DNA of 64,000 bases from an uncultured Flavobacteriales bacterium (lineage in GTDB: Bacteria; Bacteroidota; Bacteroidia; Flavobacteriales; BACL11): the NCBI GenBank assembly GCA_905612305.1, contig CAJQRK010000005.1, positions 27,861-91,860 on the forward strand. The letters are read 5' to 3'. This document shows, piece after piece, positions 4,191-64,000 of this stretch (positions within the stretch are counted from its first letter, which is position 1; each line of letters opens with the position of its first letter). Under the pieces are notes generated by a model. The model did not search any database and was not told the origin of the DNA. It saw only the letters and a list, made by a program, of their open reading frames with translations. A program made the translations under genes and the position numbers.

Positions 4191-4619
4191 TTAATTATAA
4201 ATATGCATTTGACTTCCCTGCAAGCTCGAATGATACTGCTTAAGAGGAAGTAAGGCAGGAGCATTTGCGGCAGCACCATCTTGTTCTAGTAAAAACGCAG
4301 AAGTGCAACAGCCACAATAAGCAATTCCTGCATTAACAGAATCAATATGTGAACAAGCTAGTGAAGGCTCGTAACTACAATTTCTATCATATACTTTATA
4401 GTCGTCTCCCACCCCGTGATAAATGATGATTCCTTCAACTCCTTCTTCATTTAATAGAGGTACATCAAAAATGGAGTTGCCGGAAACTTGCAAATCGCTA
4501 TATTCTGGCAAGCTCAAATCTATAAGAATATTTACATAAACCTCTTCAATGTAATTGTCTTTTGAATTACAACTTGCAATTAATAGGCTAATACTAAAGA
4601 TGTAAATACTTGATTTCAT
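4191..4619 (-). CDS. Small Rieske-like lipoprotein
   Basis: Lipoprotein signal MKSSIYIFSISLLIASCNSK; YKVYDRNCSYEPSLACSHID...YCGCCTSAFLLEQDGAAANAPALLPLKQYHSSLQGSQMHIYN matches the Rieske-like fold pattern of a recurring Flavobacteriia family. Start set at internal Met. Confidence 0.6.
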   Translation of the reverse strand: MKSSIYIFSISLLIASCNSKDNYIEEVYVNILIDLSLPEYSDLQVSGNSIFDVPLLNEEGVEGIIIYHGVGDDYKVYDRNCSYEPSLACSHIDSVNAGIAYCGCCTSAFLLEQDGAAANAPALLPLKQYHSSLQGSQMHIYN

Positions 4620-4731
4620 GATTGCAATTTTACAAAAAAGAAATGGATTTATCATTCCTCGAGGTATGAAAATATTTATATCTTTACGACCTTCTAAAAT
4701 CAGAATTTACATTTAAACGAAACAGTATACC

Positions 4732-7700
4732 ATGTTGAGAAAAATTTACTTGATAGCGGCATTAGCATTAATATCAACCCTTGCTTTTGCACAAACAGGA
4801 ACCTTGAAAGGAGTGATATCAGACGCAATGAGTGGAGAGCCTATCCCGTTTGCAAATATTATCATTGAAAAGAATGGAAATCAATCAGCAGGAACTACTA
4901 CTGATTTTGATGGAAACTATATTATTAAACCAGTTGAGCCAGGGAATTATACCATTAAAGCTACATTTGTTGGTTATGGTACGGTTGAGGTTACTGGGGT
5001 TATTGTTTCCGCAAATAAAATTACTTTTCAGGACGTAAAATTGCAAGAGGGTATTGCAATTGGAGAAGTAAAGATTATTGCGTATAAAAAACCGTTATTG
5101 GATCAGGATAATCTTTCAGGAGAAACAAAAACAGCTGAAGAAATTGTTGCTTTGCCAACAAGATCTATAAATTCAATTGCAGCTACAACTGCTGGGATTT
5201 ACCAGCAAGATGAAGGGTCTGAGGTAAATGTCAGGGGATCAAGAGGAGACGCAACTGAATACTATGTTGATGGAATTAAGGTGAGAGGAAGTATGGGAGT
5301 GCCAACTTCAGGTATTGAACAAATCACTGTAATTACTGGTGGTTTACCTGCACAATATGGGGATGCAACTGGGGGTATTATCTCGGTAACCACTAAAGGG
5401 CCTTCTAATAAAATGTTTGGAGGTATTGAGTTTGAATCCTCTTCATTATTTGATGGTTACAACTACAATTTATTAGGATTTGCACTTTCTGGCCCTATTT
5501 TGAAAAAGCGTAATACAGATGGCTCAAAAGGAAGTTCAATAATTGGTTATTTCTTAGCAGGAGAATTCAGATCCGTTGACGATACTGACCCTTCAGCAAT
5601 TGGAAGGTGGAAGGTAAAAAACGATAAGCTAGAGTGGTTAAAAGATAATCCTTTTCAAGTAGCCCCAAATGCAACAGCAGGATTCTTAAGTACTTCTGAT
5701 TTTTTAACAGCAACAGATTTTGAGAATACGCAAGCAAAACAAAATGCACACAACAACAAATTTAACATATCAGGGAAATTAGATTTTAAACCAGGAAAGA
5801 ATACTTTTTTGTCTTTAGGAGGTAATTACTATACAAAAAAATCTCGTGATTTTTCAGCTTCTCGCTCAATGTTTTCATGGGAAGATAATAGAGAGACGAG
5901 CGAACAAACTTATCGTTTATTTGGGAAGCTAACACAAAAATTTGGCTCAGCAGAATCGAATGAGGAAAATAGTAGTTCGACTATTAAAAATGCCTTTTTT
6001 ACTTTACAAGCAGACTATACAAATAACAAATATACTTTTGGAGACGCAAACCATAAAGATAACATATTTAATTATGGCTATGTAGGCAAATTCACAACTC
6101 ATAAAGCGCCAACTTATGAGAATGGTAGCGCTGTTGATTCTACTTCTGGAACTATATATACGGGTAGAGTGTTAGGTGGTTGGGCTGATACTTTGTATGA
6201 ATATGCTCCTGGAGGGTTAAATATAGGCCTAGAAAATTATACAAATGCTTATTATGATATGTTTTCGGATTATGGGATGACCTCCTATATGGCTCCGTTT
6301 GGTATTGGAGATGCAAATGATGGAGTAATAAGAACAGCAGCAGATTTACAAGGACAAGGGTTGACGAATGGAGGCTCTCCAGCCTCGGTATATTCTCTTT
6401 TTAGTAATCACGGATCATGGTATGGCTATTCTGTTAAACAAGAAAATACCCAATTTGCTTTTAAGGCATCTGGTTCAGCTGATATAAAATCACATGAGTT
6501 CTCTTTTGGGTTTGAGTTTGAAGAAAGAAAAGATTACTATTGGCGATTTAATGCAGTATCAAATAGCACATCCCCATCTATATGGACATTAATGAGACAA
6601 CAAGCCAACAAGCATATAATGGAATTGGATTTAGCCAATCCTCATCCTGTTTTTGATATTCACGGTACATATCAAGATACGGTTAATTACGATCGTTTAA
6701 ATGCTGATTTAGATCCAAAAACTGGCAACCCAACTGGAGAATTTCAATCTTGGTTTGATAGAGAATTAAGGATCTCATTAGATAAAGACCCAAATGGAGT
6801 AGAGTTTATAGATATTGATTCCTATGATCCATCAACTTTCAGTTTAGATATGTTTAATGCTGATGAATTATTAAACAGTGGTTCGTCAATAGTTTATTAT
6901 TATGGATATGATATTTACGGTAACAAGACGAATACTCACAATACTTTAAAAGACTTCTTTAATTATGAGGATAATAATGGTAACAATACAAGAAATATAG
7001 CGCCATACAATCCTATATACCAAGCAGGATATATACAAGATAAATTTGCTATTGAAGATTTAATTTTTAATATTGGAGTAAGAGTAGATCGTTTTGATGC
7101 AAACCAAAAGGCGTTAAAAGATAAATTTTTACTTTATAATGCACATGATGCATCAGCAAACACAGATCTAATTAACTCTACAAATATTCCATCCACTATT
7201 GGTGATGATTATGTGGTGTATGTTGATGACATTTCTAATGCATCAACAATTGTTGGCTATAGAAATGGAAGTAATTGGTACAATGCAGATGGATTAGAAA
7301 TTTCTGATCCATCTTTATTGGCTGAGGCTGCTGGCGGAAAAATTGCACCTTACTTAACTGATCAATCGATTATTGATGATAGTCTTGGAAGAGTTAATAT
7401 TTCTGCATTTAAAGATTATAAGCCCGAAACAATTTTTATGCCAAGGATTGCTTTCTCTTTCCCAATTTCGGATGAGGCACAGTTCTTTGCGCATTATGAC
7501 GTATTAACACAAAGACCTCCAGAAGGAAATAGAATAGAACCAGTTGATTATTTATTTATGGAAGATAGAGTGGGGGCAACTTTAAATAATCCTGATCTAA
7601 AACCTGAGAGAACAGTTGATTATGAGCTAGGCTTTGCTAAAACATTGTCATTACGCTCTGCTTTAAAAATTTCTGCATTTTATAAAGAATTAAGAGACAT

Positions 7701-8484
7701 GATTCAAATAACAAATGTATTGTCGGCTTATCCTGCACAATACTATACTTATGGTAATATTGATTTTAGTACAGTAAAAGGGATGTCAGTTAATTATGAT
7801 TTAAGAAGAACTAATAATGTGCAAATGACCGCAAATTATACTTTGCAATTTGCGGATGGTACAGGTTCTAATGCAACATCAGGGCAGGATTTAGTGAATA
7901 CAGGTCAACCAAATCTAAGAACTACAATTCCACTTGCATACGATCAGCGACATGCAATTTCAGCATCAGTTGATTATCATTATGGTAATGGTAAAGACTA
8001 TAATGGTCCCGTATGGTTTAATTCCAAAGTATTCCAGAATTCTGGGGCTAATGTAATGATGTCAGCAGGTTCAGGAGTTCCTTATTCAAGGCAATCAAAT
8101 ATCACTCAAGAGGCTGCTTCAGGAATTAATGATCGCTCTACTTTAGAAGGAAGCCTAAATGGATCTCGCTTACCATGGCAATTCCGTGTAAATGCTAAAA
8201 TAAACAAAGAGTTCGAAATTAAATGGAGTGATAAAAAGAGCTCACATATTAATGTATATGTGCAAGTTCAAAATTTATTTGATGCTCGGAATATTATTAA
8301 TGTTTATCGTGCTACAGGAAACCCAGAGGATGATGGATATTTAACAGCAGCAGCTTCTCAAAATTCAATAGAATCTAGAAATGATGAAAATGCGTTTAGG
8401 TATTTATACTCATTAGCAGTTAATAATCCTGAACATTATAGTTTACCACGAATGTGGAGAGCCGGATTGAGTATTAAATTTTAA
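4732..8484 (+). CDS. TonB-dependent receptor with N-terminal carboxypeptidase-regulatory-like domain
   Basis: Signal peptide; GTLKGVISDAMSGEPIPFANIIIEKNGNQSAGTTTDFDGNYIIKPVEPGNYTIKATFVGYG; plug EVNVRGSRGDATEYYVDGIKVRG; C-terminal barrel ending SLPRMWRAGLSIKF. Confidence 0.93.
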   Translation: MLRKIYLIAALALISTLAFAQTGTLKGVISDAMSGEPIPFANIIIEKNGNQSAGTTTDFDGNYIIKPVEPGNYTIKATFVGYGTVEVTGVIVSANKITFQDVKLQEGIAIGEVKIIAYKKPLLDQDNLSGETKTAEEIVALPTRSINSIAATTAGIYQQDEGSEVNVRGSRGDATEYYVDGIKVRGSMGVPTSGIEQITVITGGLPAQYGDATGGIISVTTKGPSNKMFGGIEFESSSLFDGYNYNLLGFALSGPILKKRNTDGSKGSSIIGYFLAGEFRSVDDTDPSAIGRWKVKNDKLEWLKDNPFQVAPNATAGFLSTSDFLTATDFENTQAKQNAHNNKFNISGKLDFKPGKNTFLSLGGNYYTKKSRDFSASRSMFSWEDNRETSEQTYRLFGKLTQKFGSAESNEENSSSTIKNAFFTLQADYTNNKYTFGDANHKDNIFNYGYVGKFTTHKAPTYENGSAVDSTSGTIYTGRVLGGWADTLYEYAPGGLNIGLENYTNAYYDMFSDYGMTSYMAPFGIGDANDGVIRTAADLQGQGLTNGGSPASVYSLFSNHGSWYGYSVKQENTQFAFKASGSADIKSHEFSFGFEFEERKDYYWRFNAVSNSTSPSIWTLMRQQANKHIMELDLANPHPVFDIHGTYQDTVNYDRLNADLDPKTGNPTGEFQSWFDRELRISLDKDPNGVEFIDIDSYDPSTFSLDMFNADELLNSGSSIVYYYGYDIYGNKTNTHNTLKDFFNYEDNNGNNTRNIAPYNPIYQAGYIQDKFAIEDLIFNIGVRVDRFDANQKALKDKFLLYNAHDASANTDLINSTNIPSTIGDDYVVYVDDISNASTIVGYRNGSNWYNADGLEISDPSLLAEAAGGKIAPYLTDQSIIDDSLGRVNISAFKDYKPETIFMPRIAFSFPISDEAQFFAHYDVLTQRPPEGNRIEPVDYLFMEDRVGATLNNPDLKPERTVDYELGFAKTLSLRSALKISAFYKELRDMIQITNVLSAYPAQYYTYGNIDFSTVKGMSVNYDLRRTNNVQMTANYTLQFADGTGSNATSGQDLVNTGQPNLRTTIPLAYDQRHAISASVDYHYGNGKDYNGPVWFNSKVFQNSGANVMMSAGSGVPYSRQSNITQEAASGINDRSTLEGSLNGSRLPWQFRVNAKINKEFEIKWSDKKSSHINVYVQVQNLFDARNIINVYRATGNPEDDGYLTAAASQNSIESRNDENAFRYLYSLAVNNPEHYSLPRMWRAGLSIKF

Positions 8485-8513
8485 TAAAAGTAAGACAAGA
8501 AAACAGATTTTAT

Positions 8514-11500
8514 ATGAATAATAAAATAAAACAAATCGTAAGCCTTTCGTTAGTACTGCTAGCAGTTAGTGTTATGGCAAAAGAAAATGTATACAGCCCA
8601 GGCGCAACCTCTGTAGTAAACACTAAAGTTGCTGCGGGCTGTGATCCCTCTTCCTCACAAACAGATTTAGATGTAAATAATGTTAGAACTACAATAATGG
8701 GTGGTGGAGATATGTGGTGGAACTTATCTGATGCAAGGTATGAAATTCCAAAAGATGGAAATAGACATTCTTTATTTGCTGGAGCACTTTGGATTGGAGG
8801 TGTTGATGATGGAGGTCAATTAAAGGTTGCAGCTATGACCTACAGGCAAGGCGGTAATGATTTTTGGCCAGGCCCTTTGGATGAAGTGACTGCACTAATT
8901 ACTGCTAGCGAGTGTGCTCTATGGGATAAGCATTTTAAAATAACACGAGAAGAAGTGGAATTCCATGTCGATAATTATTTAGACCCTAATTATACAATGC
9001 CAGCATCAATTAAAAACTGGCCAGCTCACGGAAATTATAATAATCCTTTTGTTGGTTTTAGAAATCTTGCCCCCTTTTATTCCCCAACCGGCAATATTGA
9101 TTATGACCCAGAGAGTGGTGATTATCCTGATTATAATATTACAGGCACTAATGATAACGCTTCACTATTTGGCGATCAAACACTTTGGTGGGTATTTAAT
9201 GATAAAGGAAATATTCATACAGAAACTGAAGCAGAGCCATTAGGACTGGAGATTCATGCGCAGGCCTTTGGTTTTACATCTGACAATGAAGTGAATGATA
9301 TGACTTTTTACAATTATAAAATTATTAACCGTTCTACCACACCACTAAATGACACATATTTTGGGCAATGGGTAGATGCTGATTTAGGATTTTATTTGGA
9401 TGATTATGTAGGTTGTGATGTAGGTTTAGGACTTGGTTTTTGTTATAATGGTGATGCAGAAGATGAGGGGGCTGCAGGATATGGATTTAACCCACCTGCA
9501 ATTGGAGTAGATTTTTTCCAAGGGCCACTTGCAGATAAATTTGATGGGATTAATAATGATAACGATTTTGATACTCTTGGTTTTCCTATTATTGATGAAG
9601 GAACAAATGGAATAGATGATGATAATGATGGTCTAATTGATGAATTAGATGAGAGGGAGCAAATTATAATGTCAAAATTTGTATATTATAACAATGACTT
9701 CACTGTTACTGGAAATCCTGAAAACGGAACACATATATATAACTATTTAAGAGGTATCTGGAAAGATAATGTACCAATGACTTTTGGTGGTGATGGGCAT
9801 GGTGGAGGACAAGGCACAACACCAACTGAATGTAATTTTATGTTCCCTGGAACATCAGATGATCAATTCACAGGGCAAGAATGGACAGAAGTTACTGCTG
9901 GTAATGTCCCTGCAGACAGAAGGTTTATTCAATCTGCAGGCCCTTTCACTTTAGAGCCAGGCGCAGTAAATGAAATTACTACTGGTGTAGTTTGGGCTAG
10001 AGCTAAATCTGGTGGCCAAACAGCATCTATTGCTTTAGTGAAAACTTACGATAGAGAGGCGCAAGCGTTATTTGATAATAATTTTAACATTCTTAACGGG
10101 CCAGATGCTCCTGATTTACAAATACAAGAATTAGACAAGCAACTTGTATTCACGTTATCTAATAGTGGAATTTCTAATAACATTAATGAGTCTTACTCAG
10201 AGAAAGACCCTTATATTAAAAAGTCAATAAATGCAAATAGTCAATATTATGAATTTCAAGGGTATTTAGTGTATCAGTTGGCAAACGCTACTGTATCAGC
10301 AACTGATTTGACTGATCCTGACTTAGCTCGATTAATTTATAGAAGTGATATTAATGATGATGTAACAGGAATAGTTAACCAGTATTTAGATCCTTCATTA
10401 GGAGTGTACACCCCAATTGAAGAAGTGTCTTCTATATTAAACTCTGGAGTTGTTGGTTCTGTGGATAAAGGCATACAATTCTCTTTCCAAGTTTCAGATG
10501 ATAGGTTTGCTGCAGGAAACACACGATTAGTAAATCATAATACCTATTATTATATGTCTATGGCTTACGGCTACAATATGGCGGAGGAAAATGCATCTCC
10601 TTATGATGTAAATGCACCAGATTATGATGGAAGAAATCAGCCGTATATTTCAGGAAGAAAAAATATTCAGACATATTCTGCTATTCCTCATTTTACAGAG
10701 CCTGAAGCTGGAGGTACAACATTAAATGCTTCTTATGGTGATGGAGTGAAAATCACAAGAGTTGAAGGGCAAGGTAATGGAGGTAATAGTTTAGAATTAA
10801 CAAAAACAACGGTTGACGAAATTCTTGCCTCAAATGATCATAGGAGTTTGTACCCAGTCTATAAAGCAGGACAAGGACCAATTGAAATAACTGTTGTTGA
10901 CCCAGTTAAAATACCTGAGGGGGATTATGGCTTAAAACTTGAGGATCCTATTTTTACAGGAACTGCAATTACATCATACGGTAAATGGACTTTACTTGAT
11001 GAAGCAACTGGGGTAACAGTAGCTTCTGCAAATCAGAATATTGTTTTAGGTTCGGAAAAGTATATTACAGCTTTAGGATTAAATATAAAAATAAAACAAG
11101 CATTAAACCCTGGTACTGATCCAGATAATATTGCTGAAAACGGTTTGATTTCTGGGACTATTGAGTTTGAAGATCAAAATGATAGATGGCTAAGTGGTGT
11201 GGCTGATAGAGATGATGATAATGGATTTTTGTGGGGTTTAAATTGGATAAGAGCGGGGTCTCAGACTAATGACGATGACGCAAAAATGAGTGATTACAAT
11301 CAGAATGATGATCCAAATGGCGTCTATGAAGGAGCTGTTGTACAAACTAATGTTCTTTTTGGAGGACTGGAAAGTACAGGAGGTACGTGGGCACCTTATT
11401 CTTTTGCCTCAAATATGAATGACGGTCCTGGTTTTAGCAGTACCGTAACAAATAGTTATTCAAAGTTTGAAAACACCAATTCAGTTGATATTGTATTTAC

Positions 11501-12776
11501 AAATGATATGTCAAATTGGTCAAAAGTATGTGTAGTTGAGGCTCAGGATGATCCTGCACTAGCAATTGGGAACCAAGTAAAAATGGGATTAAGACAAAGT
11601 CCTTCATTAGATATTAATGGAGCTCTTGCAAATGATGGCACTATGGGAATGAGCTATTTCCCAGGTTACGCAATTGATGTAGAAACAGGAGAGCGTCTAA
11701 ATATCATTTTTTCAGAAGATTCTTGGTCAACTTCCGAAAACGGAAATGATATGCTTTGGAACCCTACTGATAAAATTGTCACCGATCAGTTTCCGCAATA
11801 CGATCCAAGTGCAGATCCTGGAGAACAATTTTCAGGAGGTAATTATTTATTAGGAGGCAAACATTTTATCTATATAGTCAAAGGAGAATCTTGGGTAAAA
11901 GGTATTGAAGATTATGTTAACGGAAATTTAATAGATGTTGGAAATTCACCAAATTATGATGAATGTGCATGGGTTTATGAAAAACTGGCTAATTATACAC
12001 CACTTTTAGTTGCTCAATTTGATGTATTTGAAAATATAACTTGGGTAGGAGTTCCGTTATTAGCTCCAGGTAGAACTTTACGAACGGACCCTAATGGGAT
12101 ACGAAATGATGCTACAGTTAAGTTAAGAGTTACAAAACCATATAAACAATATGAGACAGTTGATGATGACAAGTTTTTTAATAAAAACATGGCTCTGACT
12201 GCAGGGAATACTTATGTTGTAGCATATTTCAACTCATCCTTGACAAATCCGCAAGGATCATGGGGCGGACAAACAGTAACTCATGATGGAACTACATATG
12301 CACCTGGAGATGAATTTATAGCAACAACAACATCCTTCACGGGTAGCACTAAATCTAGAGTAATTGAACATACTGCCTTAAATGCGTTTAGCCCAATTTA
12401 TCGTTTTAATACGGATGATATTGTTGCTAATAAAGGTAATCTTCAGGTAGCTAAGGGGGCAATGGAAACGATTAAAGCCGTGCCTAACCCTTATTATGGT
12501 TATTCTTCTTATGAGGTGAATCAGTTAGACAACAGAGTTAAGATTACTAATTTACCACAGCGAGCAACAATTTCTATTTTTACCGTGAGTGGTACTTTGG
12601 TGCGTAAAATGAAAAAGGATGATGCAGTAACTTCTATTGATTGGGATTTGAAAAATGATTATGGAATTCCAATTGCAAGTGGGTTATATATTATTCATAT
12701 AAATGCTCCTGGTGTAGGAGAAAAAGTAATAAAATGGTTTGGTGCATTACGCCCGATTGATTTAGATACTTTCTAA
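8514..12776 (+). CDS. Large secreted/surface protein with T9SS-type-A-like or FlgD-like C-terminal domain
   Basis: Signal peptide MNNKIKQIVSLSLVLLAVSVMA; Asp-rich GIDDDNDGLIDELDERE; C-terminus AVPNPYYGYSSYEVNQLDNRVKITNLPQRATISIFTVSGTLVRKMKKDDAVTSIDWDLKNDYGIPIASGLYIIHINAPGVGEKVIKWFGALRPIDLDTF. Confidence 0.75.
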   Translation: MNNKIKQIVSLSLVLLAVSVMAKENVYSPGATSVVNTKVAAGCDPSSSQTDLDVNNVRTTIMGGGDMWWNLSDARYEIPKDGNRHSLFAGALWIGGVDDGGQLKVAAMTYRQGGNDFWPGPLDEVTALITASECALWDKHFKITREEVEFHVDNYLDPNYTMPASIKNWPAHGNYNNPFVGFRNLAPFYSPTGNIDYDPESGDYPDYNITGTNDNASLFGDQTLWWVFNDKGNIHTETEAEPLGLEIHAQAFGFTSDNEVNDMTFYNYKIINRSTTPLNDTYFGQWVDADLGFYLDDYVGCDVGLGLGFCYNGDAEDEGAAGYGFNPPAIGVDFFQGPLADKFDGINNDNDFDTLGFPIIDEGTNGIDDDNDGLIDELDEREQIIMSKFVYYNNDFTVTGNPENGTHIYNYLRGIWKDNVPMTFGGDGHGGGQGTTPTECNFMFPGTSDDQFTGQEWTEVTAGNVPADRRFIQSAGPFTLEPGAVNEITTGVVWARAKSGGQTASIALVKTYDREAQALFDNNFNILNGPDAPDLQIQELDKQLVFTLSNSGISNNINESYSEKDPYIKKSINANSQYYEFQGYLVYQLANATVSATDLTDPDLARLIYRSDINDDVTGIVNQYLDPSLGVYTPIEEVSSILNSGVVGSVDKGIQFSFQVSDDRFAAGNTRLVNHNTYYYMSMAYGYNMAEENASPYDVNAPDYDGRNQPYISGRKNIQTYSAIPHFTEPEAGGTTLNASYGDGVKITRVEGQGNGGNSLELTKTTVDEILASNDHRSLYPVYKAGQGPIEITVVDPVKIPEGDYGLKLEDPIFTGTAITSYGKWTLLDEATGVTVASANQNIVLGSEKYITALGLNIKIKQALNPGTDPDNIAENGLISGTIEFEDQNDRWLSGVADRDDDNGFLWGLNWIRAGSQTNDDDAKMSDYNQNDDPNGVYEGAVVQTNVLFGGLESTGGTWAPYSFASNMNDGPGFSSTVTNSYSKFENTNSVDIVFTNDMSNWSKVCVVEAQDDPALAIGNQVKMGLRQSPSLDINGALANDGTMGMSYFPGYAIDVETGERLNIIFSEDSWSTSENGNDMLWNPTDKIVTDQFPQYDPSADPGEQFSGGNYLLGGKHFIYIVKGESWVKGIEDYVNGNLIDVGNSPNYDECAWVYEKLANYTPLLVAQFDVFENITWVGVPLLAPGRTLRTDPNGIRNDATVKLRVTKPYKQYETVDDDKFFNKNMALTAGNTYVVAYFNSSLTNPQGSWGGQTVTHDGTTYAPGDEFIATTTSFTGSTKSRVIEHTALNAFSPIYRFNTDDIVANKGNLQVAKGAMETIKAVPNPYYGYSSYEVNQLDNRVKITNLPQRATISIFTVSGTLVRKMKKDDAVTSIDWDLKNDYGIPIASGLYIIHINAPGVGEKVIKWFGALRPIDLDTF

Positions 12777-12814
12777 AAATAAAAAAAGATTAGACGATTA
12801 TAAATATTATAGAT

Positions 12815-13879
12815 ATGAAACAAATTAATAACAGGATAAAAGTAATAGGACTTATTGCATTAATATTGCTTCCTCTTAATACTATATTTGCAGGAAATCC
12901 GCAAAGAGCAGGACAAGCTGGGGCTTCCGAATTGTTAATCAACCCATGGGCTAGAACTTCTGGATGGGCAGGTGCAAATATAGCAGGTGTAAGAGGACTG
13001 GAAGGAATTTATTCTAATGTTGCTGGCTTGGCATTTACTGAAAAAACAGAATTAATTTTCTCGCAAACTCAATGGTTAAAGATAGGTGATGATGCTGTAA
13101 GTAATATTAGTTCTTTTGGTTTCTCACAAAAAGTAGGAGAATCAGGAGTACTTGGTTTTTCTGTAATGAGTATGGATTTTGGCAAGATTGAAATTACTAC
13201 TACTGGTTCTCCTGATGGTGGTCTAGGAACATTTGCTCCTAAATTTATGAACATAGCACTCTCATATGCTAAGATTTTCTCTAACAGTATTTACGGAGGA
13301 ATGACTATTAAAATGATTTCTGAGCAAATTTCTAACGTAGGGGCTAATGGTGTCGCTTTGGACGCAGGTATTCAATATGTCACAGGAGAAAAAGATAATT
13401 TGAAGTTCGGTATTTCATTAAAGAATGTAGGGCCAAGGATGTCATTCTCTGGTGATGGACTTTCTTTTAGAGGTATTGTAGGCGATGCAGATGATTATAA
13501 AATGACGGTTGAGCAAAGGTCTTCTGAAGTTGAATTACCAGCATTATTAAATATTGGTATATCATACGATATTAATGTATTAAAACACAGAATAACAGGA
13601 GCTGGAACTTTTACATCAAACTCTTTTCAAAAGGATCAATATCGTTTAGGGTGTGAGTATTCCTACAAAGAATTGTTTATGCTACGAACCGGCTATACTT
13701 ATCAAGAGGGAGTCACAGATCCATCAACAAGAACAACTGCTTTAAGAGGTCCTTCAGCTGGATTTACTGTTGAGCTTCCAATGGGTAGCAATGGTACAAC
13801 TTTCGGTTTGGATTATTCTTACCGTCATACTGATCCTTTCCAAGGCTCACATACTATTGGGGCTACTATTAATTTATAA
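12815..13879 (+). CDS. PorV/PorQ family outer membrane protein
   Basis: AGNPQRAGQAGASELLINPWARTSGWAGANIAGVRGLEGIYSNVAGLAFTEKTELIFSQTQWL, and C-terminal GLDYSYRHTDPFQGSHTIGATINL. Confidence 0.85.
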   Translation: MKQINNRIKVIGLIALILLPLNTIFAGNPQRAGQAGASELLINPWARTSGWAGANIAGVRGLEGIYSNVAGLAFTEKTELIFSQTQWLKIGDDAVSNISSFGFSQKVGESGVLGFSVMSMDFGKIEITTTGSPDGGLGTFAPKFMNIALSYAKIFSNSIYGGMTIKMISEQISNVGANGVALDAGIQYVTGEKDNLKFGISLKNVGPRMSFSGDGLSFRGIVGDADDYKMTVEQRSSEVELPALLNIGISYDINVLKHRITGAGTFTSNSFQKDQYRLGCEYSYKELFMLRTGYTYQEGVTDPSTRTTALRGPSAGFTVELPMGSNGTTFGLDYSYRHTDPFQGSHTIGATINL

Positions 13880-13905
13880 AATAAAAACAAAACATATTAT
13901 GTTCA

Positions 13906-13929
13906 GAAAGGAAGGCAACTTCTTTTTTT
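13906..13929 (+). terminator. Candidate intrinsic terminator after the PorV-like gene
   Basis: AAAGGAAG-GCAA-CTTCTTTTTTT: 8-bp stem including one G-U pair, GCAA tetraloop, T tract. Confidence 0.5.
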
Positions 13930-13951
13930 GGCATTTATAAGCATAAGAATT

Positions 13952-14425
13952 ATGAGTACAATATATTTATCGCAAGAAGGATACAATAACTTAAAAGTAG
14001 AATTAAACGCTTTAAAATCTGTAGATCGCCCAAGAATAATTAATCAAATTGCGGAAGCAAGAGATAAGGGGGATTTGTCAGAAAACGCAGAATATGATGC
14101 AGCTAAAGAAGCGCAAGGGTTATTGGAAGCTAGGATTGCTAAATTAGAGAATGATGTGTCAAATGCACGTGTATTAGATAAATCAGAAATGGACACATCA
14201 TCCGTACATTTATTAACAAAAGTTACCATTAAGAATATGGCAAATGGCATGGAAATGACCTATGCTATTGTCTCTGAAACTGAAGCTGATTTGGCTGCAA
14301 AAAAGATTTCGGCTACCTCCCCTATAGGTAAAGGCTTATTAGGGAAATCTGTTGGGGAGATTACTGATATTGAAGTGCCAAATGGTATTATGCATTTTGA
14401 GATTATCAAAATAGAAAGACTATAG
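13952..14425 (+). CDS. greA: Transcription elongation factor GreA
   Basis: YLSQEGYNNLKVELNALKSVDRPRIINQIAEARDKGDLSENAEYDAAKEAQG; start at internal Met MSTIYLS. Confidence 0.97.
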   Translation: MSTIYLSQEGYNNLKVELNALKSVDRPRIINQIAEARDKGDLSENAEYDAAKEAQGLLEARIAKLENDVSNARVLDKSEMDTSSVHLLTKVTIKNMANGMEMTYAIVSETEADLAAKKISATSPIGKGLLGKSVGEITDIEVPNGIMHFEIIKIERL

Positions 14426-14817
14426 TGTCAAGTATTTTCTCTAAAATAGTGAGTGATGATATTCCTGCATATAAGGTTGCCGAGAATGAGAATCACTTAG
14501 CATTTTTGGATATTTTTCCTTTAGCAAAAGGGCACGTTTTAGTTATTCCTAAAAAGGAAATAGATTATATTTTTGATATTACTTCAGACGACTATTTAGA
14601 ACTTTGGAAATTTGCACAAAAAGTAGCTAAGGGTATGGATAAAGTAATTGAATGTGAAAGAATTGGAGTAGCTGTCATTGGTATTGAAGTCCCTCATGCT
14701 CACATTCATCTAGTGCCTCTCAATAATGTGTCTGATATTAATTTTGAGCGACCAAAACTGAAGTTTTCTGAAGATGAAATGAAAGTCATTTCCGATTTAA
14801 TTAAATCAGCTATTTAA
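14425..14817 (+). CDS. HIT family protein
   Basis: SSIFSKIVSDDIPAYKVAENENHLAFLDIFPLAKGHVLVIPKKE and HAHIHLVPL histidine triad; GTG start overlapping the greA stop. Confidence 0.94.
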   Translation: MSSIFSKIVSDDIPAYKVAENENHLAFLDIFPLAKGHVLVIPKKEIDYIFDITSDDYLELWKFAQKVAKGMDKVIECERIGVAVIGIEVPHAHIHLVPLNNVSDINFERPKLKFSEDEMKVISDLIKSAI

Positions 14818-56848: not shown

Positions 56849-58009
56849 TTACCAGTTTGATTTTCCTTTCTTGTTAAATCGGTTATAATTACCGGTATTA
56901 TAGATTACATCTTGCCATTTTTTGTTATTTCCCCATTTTCCTTGCGCAGGACAAACCCTAGGTTTACTTTTGATAAAATAGAAGTTAAGAGATATTTCAT
57001 TAGTCGATCCTGCATTAGTGTAATTTAGTTTTGAAATAGTATAGTCATAACTATAACTAAATTCTAATCCTATACTTCTACTTGTCATTAGTCGGAATCT
57101 TATTATAGGAATGATTGATTCATTCTGAAATTTAACCTTTTTTTCATTGCTGTATCTACCTAACCGGTAAATACCCCCTACCTCTAATTGTATTTTATTG
57201 GCAAATGCTGTAGTAAAACCTATTTCATCTTTTTGTGTCATATTATTCCCTTGTCTTTCATGTTTAGCAAACACTTTCCAGAATTTTATAGATTTAGAAA
57301 CAAAATCAGGAAGCATACCAATGTGTTCTGTATGAATAGTGTATTTAAAAGGCAGTTTAGATGATGCATATTGGTTATTATAGAAAGATTCTATAGGCTC
57401 GTTCAGATGATGAAAGGCTAGACCTAGTAATGTCATATTTCCTTTGCTTTTTAGAGTGCGACCATGTTTTGTTAATATAAAACCTGCAGAAGCATCAAAG
57501 AATCTGTCATCAGTACGGTTAATTGGTAGAATAGCTCCTGTTTGTTCAAAGTAATGACCATAGCCATCCCATTGATCAGAAAAGATCAGATTATAATTAT
57601 TCAGCCTATTAAAGCTCATGACATTCTGTAAGGCCATACTTAAGAACATGTTTTTTTTAAATTGAAAATGAAAAGAAAATGGCACTACCCCTACATCATA
57701 AGATTTAAATACCTGGTTTTCTGTCTGATCTATTAAATAAAACCCTCCACTCCACACTATTTCTCCTCCTCCTATTTTTCTCTTCCTTATAGTTTTGCTT
57801 GCATTAAATTCAATAATATTTGAGTTAAAATATTCTGTTATGCCATTCCATTGGTTTCTTCTAAGTATAAGAAACCTATTATTGTTATCAAAGCCAGCAA
57901 ATGCTGGATTCATATACATCATATTTAAATCGATCTGTGAGAAAGAAGGGTCTTGAGCAAATGTTGTAGTGCAAATAAATAATATTCCAAGAATTAATCT
58001 TCTCCTCAT
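56849..58009 (-). CDS. PorP/SprF family type IX secretion membrane protein
   Basis: QDPSFSQIDLNMMYMNPAFAGFDNNNRFLILRRNQWNGI, and adjacency to a CHU_C-type giant protein. Confidence 0.92.
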   Translation of the reverse strand: MRRRLILGILFICTTTFAQDPSFSQIDLNMMYMNPAFAGFDNNNRFLILRRNQWNGITEYFNSNIIEFNASKTIRKRKIGGGEIVWSGGFYLIDQTENQVFKSYDVGVVPFSFHFQFKKNMFLSMALQNVMSFNRLNNYNLIFSDQWDGYGHYFEQTGAILPINRTDDRFFDASAGFILTKHGRTLKSKGNMTLLGLAFHHLNEPIESFYNNQYASSKLPFKYTIHTEHIGMLPDFVSKSIKFWKVFAKHERQGNNMTQKDEIGFTTAFANKIQLEVGGIYRLGRYSNEKKVKFQNESIIPIIRFRLMTSRSIGLEFSYSYDYTISKLNYTNAGSTNEISLNFYFIKSKPRVCPAQGKWGNNKKWQDVIYNTGNYNRFNKKGKSNW

Positions 58010-61000
58010 TATCGTATTAAGTATATAGGGCCACTCTTTTTATTGTCAATACCTTGCCATAATGTTTTGTCTGAGAATCTACCTTGAATCTTCCAGATAT
58101 ATGTGCCTTGCTGAACAGGTATCTCATTTACTTTTCCATCCCAACCTATTGCTGGAGAACCATACTCATTTAATTGATCAGTTTCAAATAATAAATTTCC
58201 CCATGTATCAAATATTTGCATTCTATATTCTTTTAGGGACCTTCCTTTTGGTAAGAATATTGAAGCCTCCCCACCATTAACATCAGGAGTTAGTGCATTA
58301 GGGATATAAAGCCCTCTGAAATAATCAACATCATGAGTTATACAGGTTGTGTCAACACATCCATATAATTTCTCTTCTAAGATTAGACAGACAGTAAAAT
58401 CTTTCCCTCCTTGATTAAGAGAGTTTGATTGATATTGATATTCAAAAAGATCTACATTCTCATGAAACTGTGGCCCTTGTGGCCCTATGGTATCTCCTTC
58501 TCCAGGAATCCATGTAAACCAGAAATCATCTACCGTAGCAAATACATTAGGGCTATATTCGCTTGCTATTGAACCCGTTCCATCAAATAAGTATAATCCA
58601 AAATCAATTTGTTCTGGAGGAAAGAATATATCAGCAACAGGAGTGGGGTATATAGTAATACTATCTCTAATGGTAAATTCATCATAACATAAGTTATCAG
58701 TGACAACTGATAAGATCGGACCATAATTTGTTATTATTCCATTTTGAGTAACATACGTATGAGTAGGAGGTACAAGTGGGATGTCTATTGTTCCATAAGT
58801 ATCCCCATCACCAAATATCCAACTATAACTCTCAATATATGATGACCCTCCATCATATAGCATATCATTAGGTATAGTAGATTGATCTGTAAAGTTTACA
58901 TCTACTGGCTCACATCCAGAATATATATCAGCAACAAATTGAGCTACCGGGTTAGGATATATATGTAATTTATAAATAGAATCAGATTCGCAGCGCTTGT
59001 TCTCTAGATGAATCATAAGGTCGTAAATTCCCGGATACTTGAAATTATATGGAGGTTCATAATTTATATTTGGAGGATTTACAGTATCTCCACCAAAATT
59101 ATCTAATATTATATATTGCCAAGAATTCACATCAGTATGCTGCGCTTCAAATTGATAAGATACATTTTCTCCACATTGATTTACAGGATCAAATGTTTCA
59201 GATATAAAGCTCATTCTTGGTATTGGATATATTCTAAAGGTATCTTCTTTAGAAGCCTTACATCCAAAACTAGTCTTTCTTGTTAGACTAATATTATATA
59301 ATCCAGGAGACCATTCAGGACTTTGTGCATAGAATATCCATTCTGGTAAAGCGGTGCTACTATTTAAAGGATTGTTATTAATGATCCATGCAGTATCATT
59401 AGGGTTTTCACCAACAAGATTATCATTAAACATACTACCTATAGCAAAGTGTGAGTTATTAAAGTCAGATGCTTTTAGAAAATCAAATTCACAGATTGGA
59501 GGTACGACAAAATCTACAATAGGTAAAGGATGAATCTCTATTGCTGGCACACCAACATCTGGAGATCGGAATGTATCTGTACAATAAGCTGAGTCAACTA
59601 CAATTAATGTTGCAGAAACATATGCCCCAATTGTATCAATTACTGTTGGATAATTATACATAGGATTCCAATCTACTGAGTTGGCAGAATTAGTTCCGTG
59701 ACTAAATTGCCAATTCCAATACCATAAACCAGTATCCGCTGCTGTAGATAGGTTATTGAATTGAACATATTCATTAGCACAAGCATTATCCCACTCAAAT
59801 TCTACATTTGGTTGATCATAAATAAATATAGAATCAGTTTTAAAATTAGAACACGAATTTTCATCTACAACAGTTAGAGAAATACTTTTCCATCCACCTG
59901 GATAGTAGAGTGTTGAGACAGTATCTGGGTGAGGAGGAAATCCTGGCCAGGTTATTCCTCCATGCCAATAACTTTGAGGGCTAGCAGTATTGCCTATATC
60001 ATTAAAATTCCAATTCCATATATATAATGGAGATCCATTACCATACGACTGGTTCATTATATATAAGGAGTCGTTTTGACATTTGACATCTCCTAAAGAG
60101 AAATCAGCAATAGGATTACAATATACTTCTACATAATTAATAATGCTATCTACACACCCATAATGATCTGTAGCAGTAAGTTTTACTTCATAATTATCAT
60201 TACAATCATCAAACCTAAAATTAGGATTCGTACTACTAGAATCCGATGGGTTTATCCATACACCTGTAAAGTTGTCAAGATTCCAATGGTATGTTGGATT
60301 AGGAGGAGAATTAATAATTATTGATGTATTAGTAAATGCTGTGATATCTCCTTCACACACAGTGTTTGTCTCAAAACTTGGTTTAGGTAATGCATAGATC
60401 TCAACACTTTCTTGGTGAGTATCAATGCAACCTCTTAATCCAGAGGTGATTTGATTATCAATCACAGTAAGTATAACTGTATATGTAGCTACAGAATCAT
60501 ATAAATATATTGGAGACTCTGCTGTATCACCTTGAGGAGGTATATTACCAAAATTCCATAGCCATGTAGCACTGCTCCCAGGGAATAAATTGCTTTGATT
60601 CACAAATTCAACGGAATCATTTATACACTCATTTTCAACCCAGAAATCAGCAAGAGGATTACATCTAACTATAGCATTAGTTGTAGAATTATCTTGACAT
60701 GTATTTCCGTCTTCTACAGTTAGTGAGACAGAATATGTATTACACACTATATATTCATGTTGATGGGGTGAGTTAGAGCTGTCTGATATTTGTAAATCCC
60801 CATAATCCCATGCATAAGTTAAATTAGTGTCACTCCCATAATATCTATTGAACTCAAAAGTGGTAGGAGTGTTATCACAGATTGTATCAGCAGTTAAGTT
60901 TACAATGGATGGGTTAGTATATACCTGTACAGGAGGCGTTATGCTGAATGGAAGAGAGAAACATCCAAAATTATCTCCAACAATAAGGGATTCAGTTTTA

Positions 61001-64000
61001 ATTCCAAAAGTATTGTAGATAAATCCTATGTCTGTAGATCCTGAATTTGAATTGACAAATTGTCCTAGGTCATGCATGTCCCATAGGCAACTATCTATTG
61101 AAGCTTGTGGAGTGGTTGTAAAAGAAGTGTTGGTATAATAAATAGCATTTCCATCACAATCATTATTTACTGTATATTCAGCCACAGGGATTGGTGTTAC
61201 AAGCACCTGATGTTTGATACTATCTACACATCCTTTATTGTCCTCTGCAATTAAAGTAACCCACCAATAACCTGCTGTATTGTAAACATGTGTCCCATTT
61301 TCTGACAACAATTGGGTTTGCATAATATAATTTGGATTATCAAAATACCACCACCAATCTAGAATTGGATGACCTCCATTTCCAGGAGATGAAGTATTTA
61401 TTAGCGTTGTTGTTTCATCAAGACAAGTAGTATCTGTTAGAAAGTCTGGATTTGGTAAATCATAAACGATTACATTTATGGTTGTATCTCCCTCACAGCT
61501 AATAGTAGGACTAATAATATTTACTACTTGTAGTGTAACAGAATGGCTTCCTGCAAATCCAAATGTATGCCATGTAATAGGGTCATTTGATGTAATTCCA
61601 TTAGGAGGAAAAGTCCATATAACTGAATCAATAGTTAATGCATTTGCTCCTATTGTAGCATCAAATTTCATCGAATCTCCAAAACATACAGGATCAGCTA
61701 CAAATTCCGCAACAGCACCAGGTACTACCATTATCTCTTGATGAGTGAAGGATATACAATCATTTGCATCCGTTACTGTTAAGTAAACATCAAAATTACC
61801 TGAAGTTTGGAATGTATGACCTATACCCCCTATATTTAAAAGTGTATCATTATTATCGTCAAAATCCCAATACCAAGTGGCAATTACTCCACCTCCTTGT
61901 TGTCCTGGTTGCGAACTATTTCCATTAAATACTGTAATGCCATCTCCTAAGCAGACTATGGAGTCAACTGTAAAATCAGCTATAGGAGGATCGTGTACTG
62001 TAATAGTCTTTGTTAAACTGTCATAACACTCGTCGATTGTGCTCCATATTTCTAATTTTATTTGATATTGTCCAGGTATTGTAAATATATGAGTTAAGTC
62101 AGTTGTATTCACACTATTTAATCCTACTTGTACAACGTTATTATTAATAGACCACCTTGTTAGACTACTATTAATATAACGTAATTGATTTGGTATTTGT
62201 TGAAGTGTAGATAAATCCTCAAAAGTAGTGGTATCGCCTAAACAGACATCATCAGATGTGAATGAAGCAACAGGGGTATGAAAGACATAGATTGTATCAG
62301 GTGCGCTACTAGAAAAATCTTGAGGATCAGGACCAAGTGAAGAAACCCCAATAATTTGATGTTTTACAAGATAAGCACCAGGTTGTGTGTATTCCCAGCA
62401 TACAGTATTGGTATCAAAGCTTGGAGTATGAATAAGTGTACGATCTGGAGTCCCTAATAAGTTATTTGGAGTTACACCATCCCAATCAAACCACCAATTG
62501 GTATAAGTAGTTGGAAATGGAGAATTTGATTGATCAAAAAAGCACACGGAATCACCTAAACATATATTACCTGGGGCTATCTTAACAAAATCAGAAGTAA
62601 CCTCATTAGTTATAATATAAAGTAGGCAACAATATTGTGCTGAATCACAATCATTATATCCAGTTACACAAATATCAAATAAACCAGTACCTATGTATGT
62701 ATGTTCAACAGGGTGAGTTGGATCTGACCAAGGTGTGTTATATGGAGGTGATGATGTAGTTGAGAGCCAATAGGAGAAAGGAGTTAGAATAGTTTGCCCA
62801 CCATCTCCCCAATCAATAACAAGAGAGTCGGTATTCACTGGAAATACAAATGCATTTAGATTCATTTCTAGGGGAAACATGGAAATCCCATAAGCACCAC
62901 TTGAAGTGTCACATGATATCAAGGTGTTTGATTGTTCTAATGTAAATTCAACTCTTGGACTAGGCCTTACTGATACTGTATCTGTAAGCGTATCATTCCC
63001 ACAGCAATTCTCTACAATTAATTTTATATAATAATCAAGATACCCTATTGGGTCTAATTGTCCTTGATTTCCTGTTAATAGTGTAGAAATACTAGATATA
63101 GAAGGGAATACTGGTATACTATCATTATCTAATACAGTACTCCAAATGATAGTTCCTGTTGTATCAAGTATTTGCCATGTATAATCCAGTATATATCCTG
63201 AACTTGCATTTCCAATAGTGGTATCAACATAAAACGGAGGATCAGTAATACAAATAGTATCTACAGTTTGAAAAGAACTTACAGGTATCTCTACTACATT
63301 AATCACTTGATTCATACTAGTGTCTAGACATCCATTATTTGACATAACTATATGGCCAATCGTATGAGAACCTGCGGTTGGCCAAGATGTGTTAAAGTTA
63401 CTAGTAGTATAACTATATAATTCTGGATATATCGTATTATCAATCACCCAGAAAGAACTATCTAATTGACCACCCAAAGTATCAAGAGTTGATGCTGTGT
63501 CACTAAAGTATATTATTGAATTAGTACATAAAGAATCTGGATAACAAGCATAATCATAATTAAAAGCAGCAACTGGATTTGGCCATATTGTTATTGGTAG
63601 AATTATAGAATCCTCACATCCATTCTGATCTATAATGGTTAGACTAACATCCCATATTCCTGAGGAAACATACACATATTCATGTGGACCTTGAGAACTG
63701 CTTGTATCATTGCCTGCATTTATATCACCAAAATCCCATTCCCAAGAGTTAAGTGGACTATATGAAGGATTTGAAGCATCTGTAAATAAGACACTATCAT
63801 TGTCACAAGTATTTGTTGTGCTAATTAAAGGTATTGGAATAGGGAATACAGTAATAGTATCTGAGATATAAGAATGATAACATCCTGTTCCAGGATCTCC
63901 TACAGTTAATTTAATGATATATATACTATCTACATCATGAGAGTAATTGGTTAAATTAAAGCTAGTGTCAGAAGGGTTAAGCGTGTAAATAGTATGTCTT
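58009..64000 (-). CDS. Giant PKD-repeat surface protein with gliding-motility-associated (CHU_C) C-terminal domain; 5' end outside window
   Basis: At least 18 repeats of the type PVASFTSDDVCLGDTTTFEDLS; C-terminus GLYIPNALTPDVNGGEASIFLPKGRSLKEYRMQIFDTWGNLLFETDQLNEYGSPAIGWDGKVNEIPVQQGTYIWKIQGRFSDKTLWQGIDNKKSGPIYLIR. The frame remains open past the listed GTG at 63675 (PIPLISTTNTCDNDSVLFTDASNPSYSPLNSWEWDFGDINAG...), so the gene is truncated. Confidence 0.93.
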   Translation of the reverse strand, partial: RHTIYTLNPSDTSFNLTNYSHDVDSIYIIKLTVGDPGTGCYHSYISDTITVFPIPIPLISTTNTCDNDSVLFTDASNPSYSPLNSWEWDFGDINAGNDTSSSQGPHEYVYVSSGIWDVSLTIIDQNGCEDSIILPITIWPNPVAAFNYDYACYPDSLCTNSIIYFSDTASTLDTLGGQLDSSFWVIDNTIYPELYSYTTSNFNTSWPTAGSHTIGHIVMSNNGCLDTSMNQVINVVEIPVSSFQTVDTICITDPPFYVDTTIGNASSGYILDYTWQILDTTGTIIWSTVLDNDSIPVFPSISSISTLLTGNQGQLDPIGYLDYYIKLIVENCCGNDTLTDTVSVRPSPRVEFTLEQSNTLISCDTSSGAYGISMFPLEMNLNAFVFPVNTDSLVIDWGDGGQTILTPFSYWLSTTSSPPYNTPWSDPTHPVEHTYIGTGLFDICVTGYNDCDSAQYCCLLYIITNEVTSDFVKIAPGNICLGDSVCFFDQSNSPFPTTYTNWWFDWDGVTPNNLLGTPDRTLIHTPSFDTNTVCWEYTQPGAYLVKHQIIGVSSLGPDPQDFSSSAPDTIYVFHTPVASFTSDDVCLGDTTTFEDLSTLQQIPNQLRYINSSLTRWSINNNVVQVGLNSVNTTDLTHIFTIPGQYQIKLEIWSTIDECYDSLTKTITVHDPPIADFTVDSIVCLGDGITVFNGNSSQPGQQGGGVIATWYWDFDDNNDTLLNIGGIGHTFQTSGNFDVYLTVTDANDCISFTHQEIMVVPGAVAEFVADPVCFGDSMKFDATIGANALTIDSVIWTFPPNGITSNDPITWHTFGFAGSHSVTLQVVNIISPTISCEGDTTINVIVYDLPNPDFLTDTTCLDETTTLINTSSPGNGGHPILDWWWYFDNPNYIMQTQLLSENGTHVYNTAGYWWVTLIAEDNKGCVDSIKHQVLVTPIPVAEYTVNNDCDGNAIYYTNTSFTTTPQASIDSCLWDMHDLGQFVNSNSGSTDIGFIYNTFGIKTESLIVGDNFGCFSLPFSITPPVQVYTNPSIVNLTADTICDNTPTTFEFNRYYGSDTNLTYAWDYGDLQISDSSNSPHQHEYIVCNTYSVSLTVEDGNTCQDNSTTNAIVRCNPLADFWVENECINDSVEFVNQSNLFPGSSATWLWNFGNIPPQGDTAESPIYLYDSVATYTVILTVIDNQITSGLRGCIDTHQESVEIYALPKPSFETNTVCEGDITAFTNTSIIINSPPNPTYHWNLDNFTGVWINPSDSSSTNPNFRFDDCNDNYEVKLTATDHYGCVDSIINYVEVYCNPIADFSLGDVKCQNDSLYIMNQSYGNGSPLYIWNWNFNDIGNTASPQSYWHGGITWPGFPPHPDTVSTLYYPGGWKSISLTVVDENSCSNFKTDSIFIYDQPNVEFEWDNACANEYVQFNNLSTAADTGLWYWNWQFSHGTNSANSVDWNPMYNYPTVIDTIGAYVSATLIVVDSAYCTDTFRSPDVGVPAIEIHPLPIVDFVVPPICEFDFLKASDFNNSHFAIGSMFNDNLVGENPNDTAWIINNNPLNSSTALPEWIFYAQSPEWSPGLYNISLTRKTSFGCKASKEDTFRIYPIPRMSFISETFDPVNQCGENVSYQFEAQHTDVNSWQYIILDNFGGDTVNPPNINYEPPYNFKYPGIYDLMIHLENKRCESDSIYKLHIYPNPVAQFVADIYSGCEPVDVNFTDQSTIPNDMLYDGGSSYIESYSWIFGDGDTYGTIDIPLVPPTHTYVTQNGIITNYGPILSVVTDNLCYDEFTIRDSITIYPTPVADIFFPPEQIDFGLYLFDGTGSIASEYSPNVFATVDDFWFTWIPGEGDTIGPQGPQFHENVDLFEYQYQSNSLNQGGKDFTVCLILEEKLYGCVDTTCITHDVDYFRGLYIPNALTPDVNGGEASIFLPKGRSLKEYRMQIFDTWGNLLFETDQLNEYGSPAIGWDGKVNEIPVQQGTYIWKIQGRFSDKTLWQGIDNKKSGPIYLIR

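Follow-up and report, generated by a model that had tools for sequence, protein, structure and literature searches.

The surface proteins PorU and PorZ keep their C-terminal domain, which docks on PorV and PorQ respectively (PMC5562754, PMC10202324), and a 2023 review proposed that such domains are spared cleavage through the protection of cognate PorV-like barrels (PMC10202324). Type A cargo of the T9SS is stated to share one shuttle, PorV, and type B cargo to have dedicated barrels, the gene for which is usually found directly downstream (PMC12618676, PMC9143113). The published pairs are PorU-PorV, PorZ-PorQ and a type B C-terminal domain (CTD) protein with PorP/SprF (PMC5562754, PMC9143113, PMC12618676). 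Here we describe a triad of genes encoding a TonB-dependent receptor (TBDR), a large secreted protein (BIG) and a PorV-like barrel (PORVL), contained in a 64,000-nucleotide stretch of DNA (the window) from a marine Flavobacteriales lineage represented by a 1.3-Mb draft genome (75% complete). The triad fits a third arrangement, in which a PorZ-like domain is combined with a dedicated PorV-family barrel encoded directly downstream. It looks like an undescribed alternative to SusC-SusD nutrient uptake, because it co-travels in most sampled Bacteroidia genomes and its relatives in sister classes adjoin sugar-digesting enzymes. No description of the triad was found in the literature searched, most subscription papers lying outside that search.

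Organisation of the triad locus

The three genes lie on the forward strand in the order TBDR (4732..8484, 1250 aa), BIG (8514..12776, 1420 aa) and PORVL (12815..13879, 354 aa), and the same-strand order and gaps of 29 nt (TBDR/BIG) and 38 nt (BIG/PORVL) given in an earlier sequence-only reading of this DNA are borne out by the coordinates in the ORF list and by family matches. The TBDR has a signal peptide followed by a CarboxypepD_reg-like domain, a plug and a beta-barrel, with the CarboxypepD_reg, Plug and TonB_dep_Rec models each above the Pfam cut-off, and it belongs to a specific orthologous family scoring ~1000-2000 bits with its HMM across triads. BIG has a signal peptide lacking a lipobox, an N-terminal region (~residues 43-530; 8640..10103, forward strand) that occurs alone in other, shorter proteins (separate matches in ORFs of 500-600 aa, covering only ~residues 46-526) and a T9SS-type, PorZ/PorU-like C-terminal Ig-like domain (~residues 1320-1420; 12471..12773, forward strand) which ends in the conserved tail KWFGALRPIDLDTF (12732..12773).

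Downstream of PORVL the sequence-only reading had placed a candidate terminator at 13906-13929. A hairpin is indeed present on the forward strand (~13899..13934; -13 kcal/mol, z -3.1), but it is absent from the consensus terminator scan and its U-run belongs to the stem, so that an end of transcription at this possible terminator is plausible rather than established. Beyond it, on the same strand, lie two conserved neighbours, greA (13952..14425, homologues in 96 loci), thought to be outside the module, and a HIT-family gene (14425..14817, homologues in 91 loci; family named from the sequence with no search), and both are usually found 3' of the triad in Bacteroidia loci. Ahead of the TBDR is a small divergent gene (4191-4655, reverse strand) that resembles Rieske-type ferredoxin subunits only weakly, below threshold; its homologues occur in 53 loci and usually adjoin ahcY. 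Elsewhere in the window (56849-63675, reverse strand) the gene for a protein of 1888 aa, which matches a type B T9SS sorting domain below threshold, lies directly before one of the PorP/SprF family (114 bits against a cut-off of 90.6), a textbook cargo-plus-shuttle pair.

The barrel and its large surface partner

PORVL falls within the PorV/PorQ family (NF033709, 143 bits, cut-off 90) but outside each of the equivalogs named in it, since it scored below the cut-offs for PorV (NF033710, 62.8 bits vs 250), PorQ (NF033711, 66.7 bits vs 220) and PorV2 (NF052325, 32.7 bits vs 325), and it forms a separate clade apart from canonical PorV. The AlphaFold2 model of the window sequence (pLDDT 84.8) has ~14 main strands, and its best solved match was PorV in the substrate-bound translocon (TM 0.70), followed by FadL and TodX. 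Looking for a separate canonical PorV, a check put forward with the sequence-only reading, revealed one on another contig of the window genome, directly after a PorU-like gene, and we therefore rejected PORVL as a replacement for PorV. The congener G013 (99% complete) has exactly two PorV-family genes, PorV (equivalog 500 bits) and PORVL, and is thus apparently without PorQ; PorQ is found alongside triads in other genomes, for example G025, G049 and G174. PorV, PorU and GldM represent the T9SS in the window genome. SprA was not found in this incomplete draft and is present in four near-complete relatives, which, with GldM in the window genome, led us to reject absence of the T9SS.

BIG matched no Pfam or NCBIfam family above cut-off and neither of the SusD models PF07980 and PF12771, and a phage origin was rejected in view of the lack of any PHROG match. 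Its fold was assessed using an AlphaFold2 model of a homologue (L121, residues 64-1263; pLDDT 83.7, pTM 0.69), according to which BIG is predicted to be a mostly beta-sandwich protein. The top solved match in Foldseek was PorZ, and a chain of the NucA-substrate-bound T9SS complex (8glk_D) aligned over 75 residues with a TM of 0.73. Nearly all remaining matches at E <= 0.001 were carbohydrate-active enzymes (dextran dextrinase, GH94 phosphorylases and GH116), aligned over ~280-490 columns with a low overall TM and at positions within the model that Foldseek does not give. A super-sandwich domain is common to the dextran dextrinase, GH94 and GH116 families.

The tail KWFGALRPIDLDTF is conserved in 184 Bacteroidia triad BIG proteins, the R and the first D each being kept in 183 and the last residue being F or Y in 177. 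BIG C-termini matched the PorZ or PorU model, weakly, in six of nine tested, the PorZ matches being confined to the CTD of BIG homologues and scoring 18.7-26.2 bits where the cut-off for full-length PorZ is 260, and the type A model TIGR04183 gave either 20-24 bits, around its cut-off of 23, or no match. For comparison, seven ordinary cargo proteins of the T9SS encoded in these loci reached 31-53 bits with the standard type A model; none of them matched PorZ and two matched PorU weakly. The suggestion of the sequence-only reading that PORVL is a private carrier or anchor is backed by this PorZ/PorU-like CTD and by the published barrel pairs. Mean-field DCA of 197 BIG-PORVL pairs gave top scores between the BIG C-terminus and PORVL that were no higher than those of either protein against a GreA control, and the test was therefore without power.

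Distribution, co-conservation and genomic context

BIG homologues, mostly full length, were present in 46 of 60 relatives and in 314 of the 396 Bacteroidia genomes sampled, which together with relatives in sister classes led us to reject a local oddity of one lineage. The families without BIG include two of the window's own order (f3 and f6). Eight genomes had neither GldM nor BIG and many had GldM without BIG, indicating that the T9SS is independent of BIG, whilst the six genomes with BIG but no GldM match were incomplete drafts or belonged to a family (f34) in which GldM scores lie near the threshold. The gene order of the triad is far beyond chance. Amongst the best 80 database loci, assigned by record title to Flavobacteriales, Bacteroidales, Chitinophagales and Sphingobacteriaceae, 75 BIG genes had room for neighbours, and the TBDR was immediately upstream in 71/75 and PORVL immediately downstream in 70/75; both together flanked BIG in 70/75, as well as in 18/19 Bacteroidia loci with room. 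Co-occurrence of the three families, a further check on the sequence-only reading, is hence near-constant in Bacteroidia. In 60 sampled Bacteroidia loci the proteins were on average 49% (TBDR), 50% (BIG), 55% (PORVL) and 60% (GreA) identical to those of the window. Values of 49-55% are high for surface proteins, which argues for an invariant rather than a diversifying ligand, and conservation of this core copy nearly to the level of GreA points to a ligand that is essential or invariant.

In several genomes there is an additional BIG gene with no adjacent TBDR or PORVL. A large sensor-like gene and a response-regulator gene, judged as such from their sequences, lie upstream of the triad in many Bacteroidales and related loci, and the same pair also accompanies certain orphan BIG genes that have neither TBDR nor PORVL (L067, L077, L082, L084, L094, L100, L117 and L132; also L066, L224 and L226). 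A congener (G008) encodes a 2145-aa protein with BIG-like segments and a different C-terminus, without TBDR or PORVL (L048:5927-12364), and the apparent start of a second copy lies 3' of it. Ahead of the TBDR, some loci of both Bacteroidia (L095, L105, L120, L122, L228 and L229) and sister classes (L197 and L198) have a D-3-phosphoglycerate dehydrogenase-like gene, a presence in both groups that hints at an ancient locus.

Genomes of sister classes contain many divergent BIG relatives, with up to 43 candidates listed per genome, only two per genome having been scored in the first survey. Both partners were adjacent in 12 of the 19 BIG genes in the sister-class loci fetched, most of the others being rearranged, and single complete genomes hold several triads (at least eight in G639) and 16 PorV-family genes. 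Across 23 non-orthologous sister-class triads the components co-diversified (TBDR-PORVL r 0.89, TBDR-CTD r 0.87, PORVL-CTD r 0.76; Mantel p 0.001), although operon neighbours co-diversify even without contact and these r values alone are therefore weak evidence of binding. Two sub-clades were separated in both the TBDR and the BIG C-terminus trees. In sub-clade (i) the end of BIG (...FAIIK) resembles that of ordinary type A cargo, and in sub-clade (ii), which includes the window and all Bacteroidia analysed here, it has an extra tail usually ending in LDxF or LDxY.

Triads of sub-clade (i) sit in polysaccharide-utilisation-like loci, starch-binding proteins included. Their neighbours encode GH16, GH3, GH2, GH5, GH26, GH92, GH106, GHL10, CBM9, CBM20 and CBM48/53 proteins, together with LacI regulators, sodium-solute symporters and many T9SS-tailed proteins. 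Individual triads adjoin GH2/GH16/GH3/CBM9 (L194), GH16/GH3/CBM9 (L209), GH16/GH3/GH5/CBM9 (L351), a CBM48/53 protein with LacI and an amylase (L208), GH26 (L211), GH92/GH106 (L346), CBM20 (L352) and GHL10 (L357). PPIC-type prolyl isomerase or related genes also adjoin triads of this glycan-linked sub-clade (L205, L207 and L211). The SusD models PF07980 and PF12771 had no match in two triad-rich genomes that are each at least 99% complete (G544 and G639), so that, as far as the coverage of those two models goes, glycan loci there appear to run without SusD; nor did they match in the window draft or its congeners G013 and G001. Paralogous triads inside glycan-degradation loci back the role in uptake raised by the sequence-only reading, in which the triad would act in transport. 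That reading's idea of a surface module is supported, but it missed the breadth of the triad, its division into two clades and the link to glycans.

In sister classes, sub-clade (ii) triads mostly adjoin housekeeping genes and genes for GWxTD-domain proteins, the latter lying directly 3' of PORVL in three loci (L203, L347 and L359). The window's copy is a syntenic core copy with greA-HIT downstream, and the D-3-phosphoglycerate dehydrogenase-like genes ahead of the TBDR in both groups suggest that sub-clade (ii) may be orthologous across classes. No glycan link was found among the neighbours of this sub-clade, one pectic lyase aside, and since it lies among housekeeping genes rather than glycan enzymes it may have a ligand other than a glycan.

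Proposed role and comparison with described systems

We consider the triad to be, more likely than not, an outer-membrane uptake complex that resembles SusC-SusD in its working and is differently built, with BIG exported by the T9SS and docked on PORVL. BIG would pass through Sec to the periplasm and then through the T9SS across the outer membrane, and its CTD would not be released, staying docked on PORVL, the dedicated PorV/PorQ-family barrel that would hold BIG at the cell surface. There BIG may capture a ligand and, as a lid or binding protein, pass it to the neighbouring TBDR, which would import it with TonB energy; we infer contacts of BIG with both PORVL and the TBDR, retention of the CTD and transport itself from gene content and order, breadth, co-diversification, folds, the PorZ/PorU-like CTD, the presence of a T9SS in the lineage and the glycan context of sub-clade (i).

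The triad might instead unite a mere secretion pair, with PORVL as dedicated shuttle and anchor and BIG as a surface adhesin or coat protein, and a TBDR that is only co-regulated. This parallels the published type B CTD proteins with downstream PorP/SprF (PMC12618676, PMC9143113) and would accommodate the few orphan BIG genes without a TBDR, but co-diversification of TBDR and PORVL is as tight as that of any pair, the TBDR is almost invariably the gene immediately upstream (71/75 loci) and paralogues occur in glycan loci, and we regard this explanation as unlikely. More doubtful by far is the idea of a PorZ-PorQ variant that would be accessory to the T9SS in attachment or processing and have no part in uptake. 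The PorZ-like BIG C-terminus and the apparent lack of PorQ in G013, with its two PorV-family genes, speak for it; against it, triads coexist with PorQ in other genomes such as G025, G049 and G174, and each sister-class genome may have many of them. We know of no TBDR role in T9SS attachment. We give the least credence to the idea that PORVL itself conducts a hydrophobic ligand in the manner of FadL, the TBDR and BIG serving as another route for this ligand or as a device to capture it, for although FadL and TodX come next after PorV among its structural matches, PorV is clearly closer in both sequence and fold, and paralogous triads adjoin polysaccharide enzymes rather than lipid genes.

Beyond an uptake complex at this locus, we see about an even chance that TonB-powered uptake machines of a second class, separate from SusC-SusD and spread through the phylum, are represented by the triad. 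In this class a T9SS-delivered binder would be held by its own PorV-family barrel; it would replace SusCD in the polysaccharide-utilisation loci of some lineages and persist in most Bacteroidia as an ancient core copy with a presumably invariant ligand. If so, a function would be found both for a surface protein of 1200-1500 aa that lacks a curated family and is kept by some four fifths of the Bacteroidia sampled, and for the clade of PorV-like barrels whose sole annotation is 'PorV/PorQ family'. The T9SS would then build nutrient importers besides secreting enzymes and adhesins, dedicated shuttle barrels would extend from type B to type-A-like cargo, and polysaccharide-utilisation loci in lineages without detectable SusD would be explained, so that genome-based prediction of glycan use in those lineages should include the triad.

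Like SusC-SusD (RagA-RagB), the triad joins a TonB-dependent receptor to a surface partner and has paralogues beside glycan enzymes, and its loci, like those of SusC-SusD, may include LacI or sensor regulators and surface glycan-binding proteins. Unlike SusD, BIG is not a lipoprotein, is two to three times larger, is of T9SS type and has a third, barrel partner, and unlike SusC the window TBDR had no SusC/RagA family match at E <= 1 (SusC model TIGR04056), with a glycan-linked TBDR paralogue also below that model's cut-off (54.7 bits vs 368). As in PorZ-PorQ and PorU-PorV, a surface protein would dock through a kept C-terminal domain on a PorV-family barrel (PMC5562754, PMC10202324), but BIG has no recognised sortase or lipopolysaccharide-delivery domain, is linked to a TBDR and has many paralogues. 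As with type B CTD proteins and PorP/SprF, the BIG gene is directly followed by that of its own 14-stranded barrel (PMC12618676, PMC9143113), whereas the BIG CTD is Ig-like and type-A-related and the barrel is of the PorV/PorQ family rather than PorP. The Bacteroidota BAM with BamG likewise combines a FadL-fold barrel with a large surface protein, the binding being known for BamG and supposed for PORVL; a BAM accessory was nevertheless rejected on family grounds, because PORVL is PorV-like and BamG belongs to FadL/Toluene_X (PMC12578637), and the triad shows no link to BamA.
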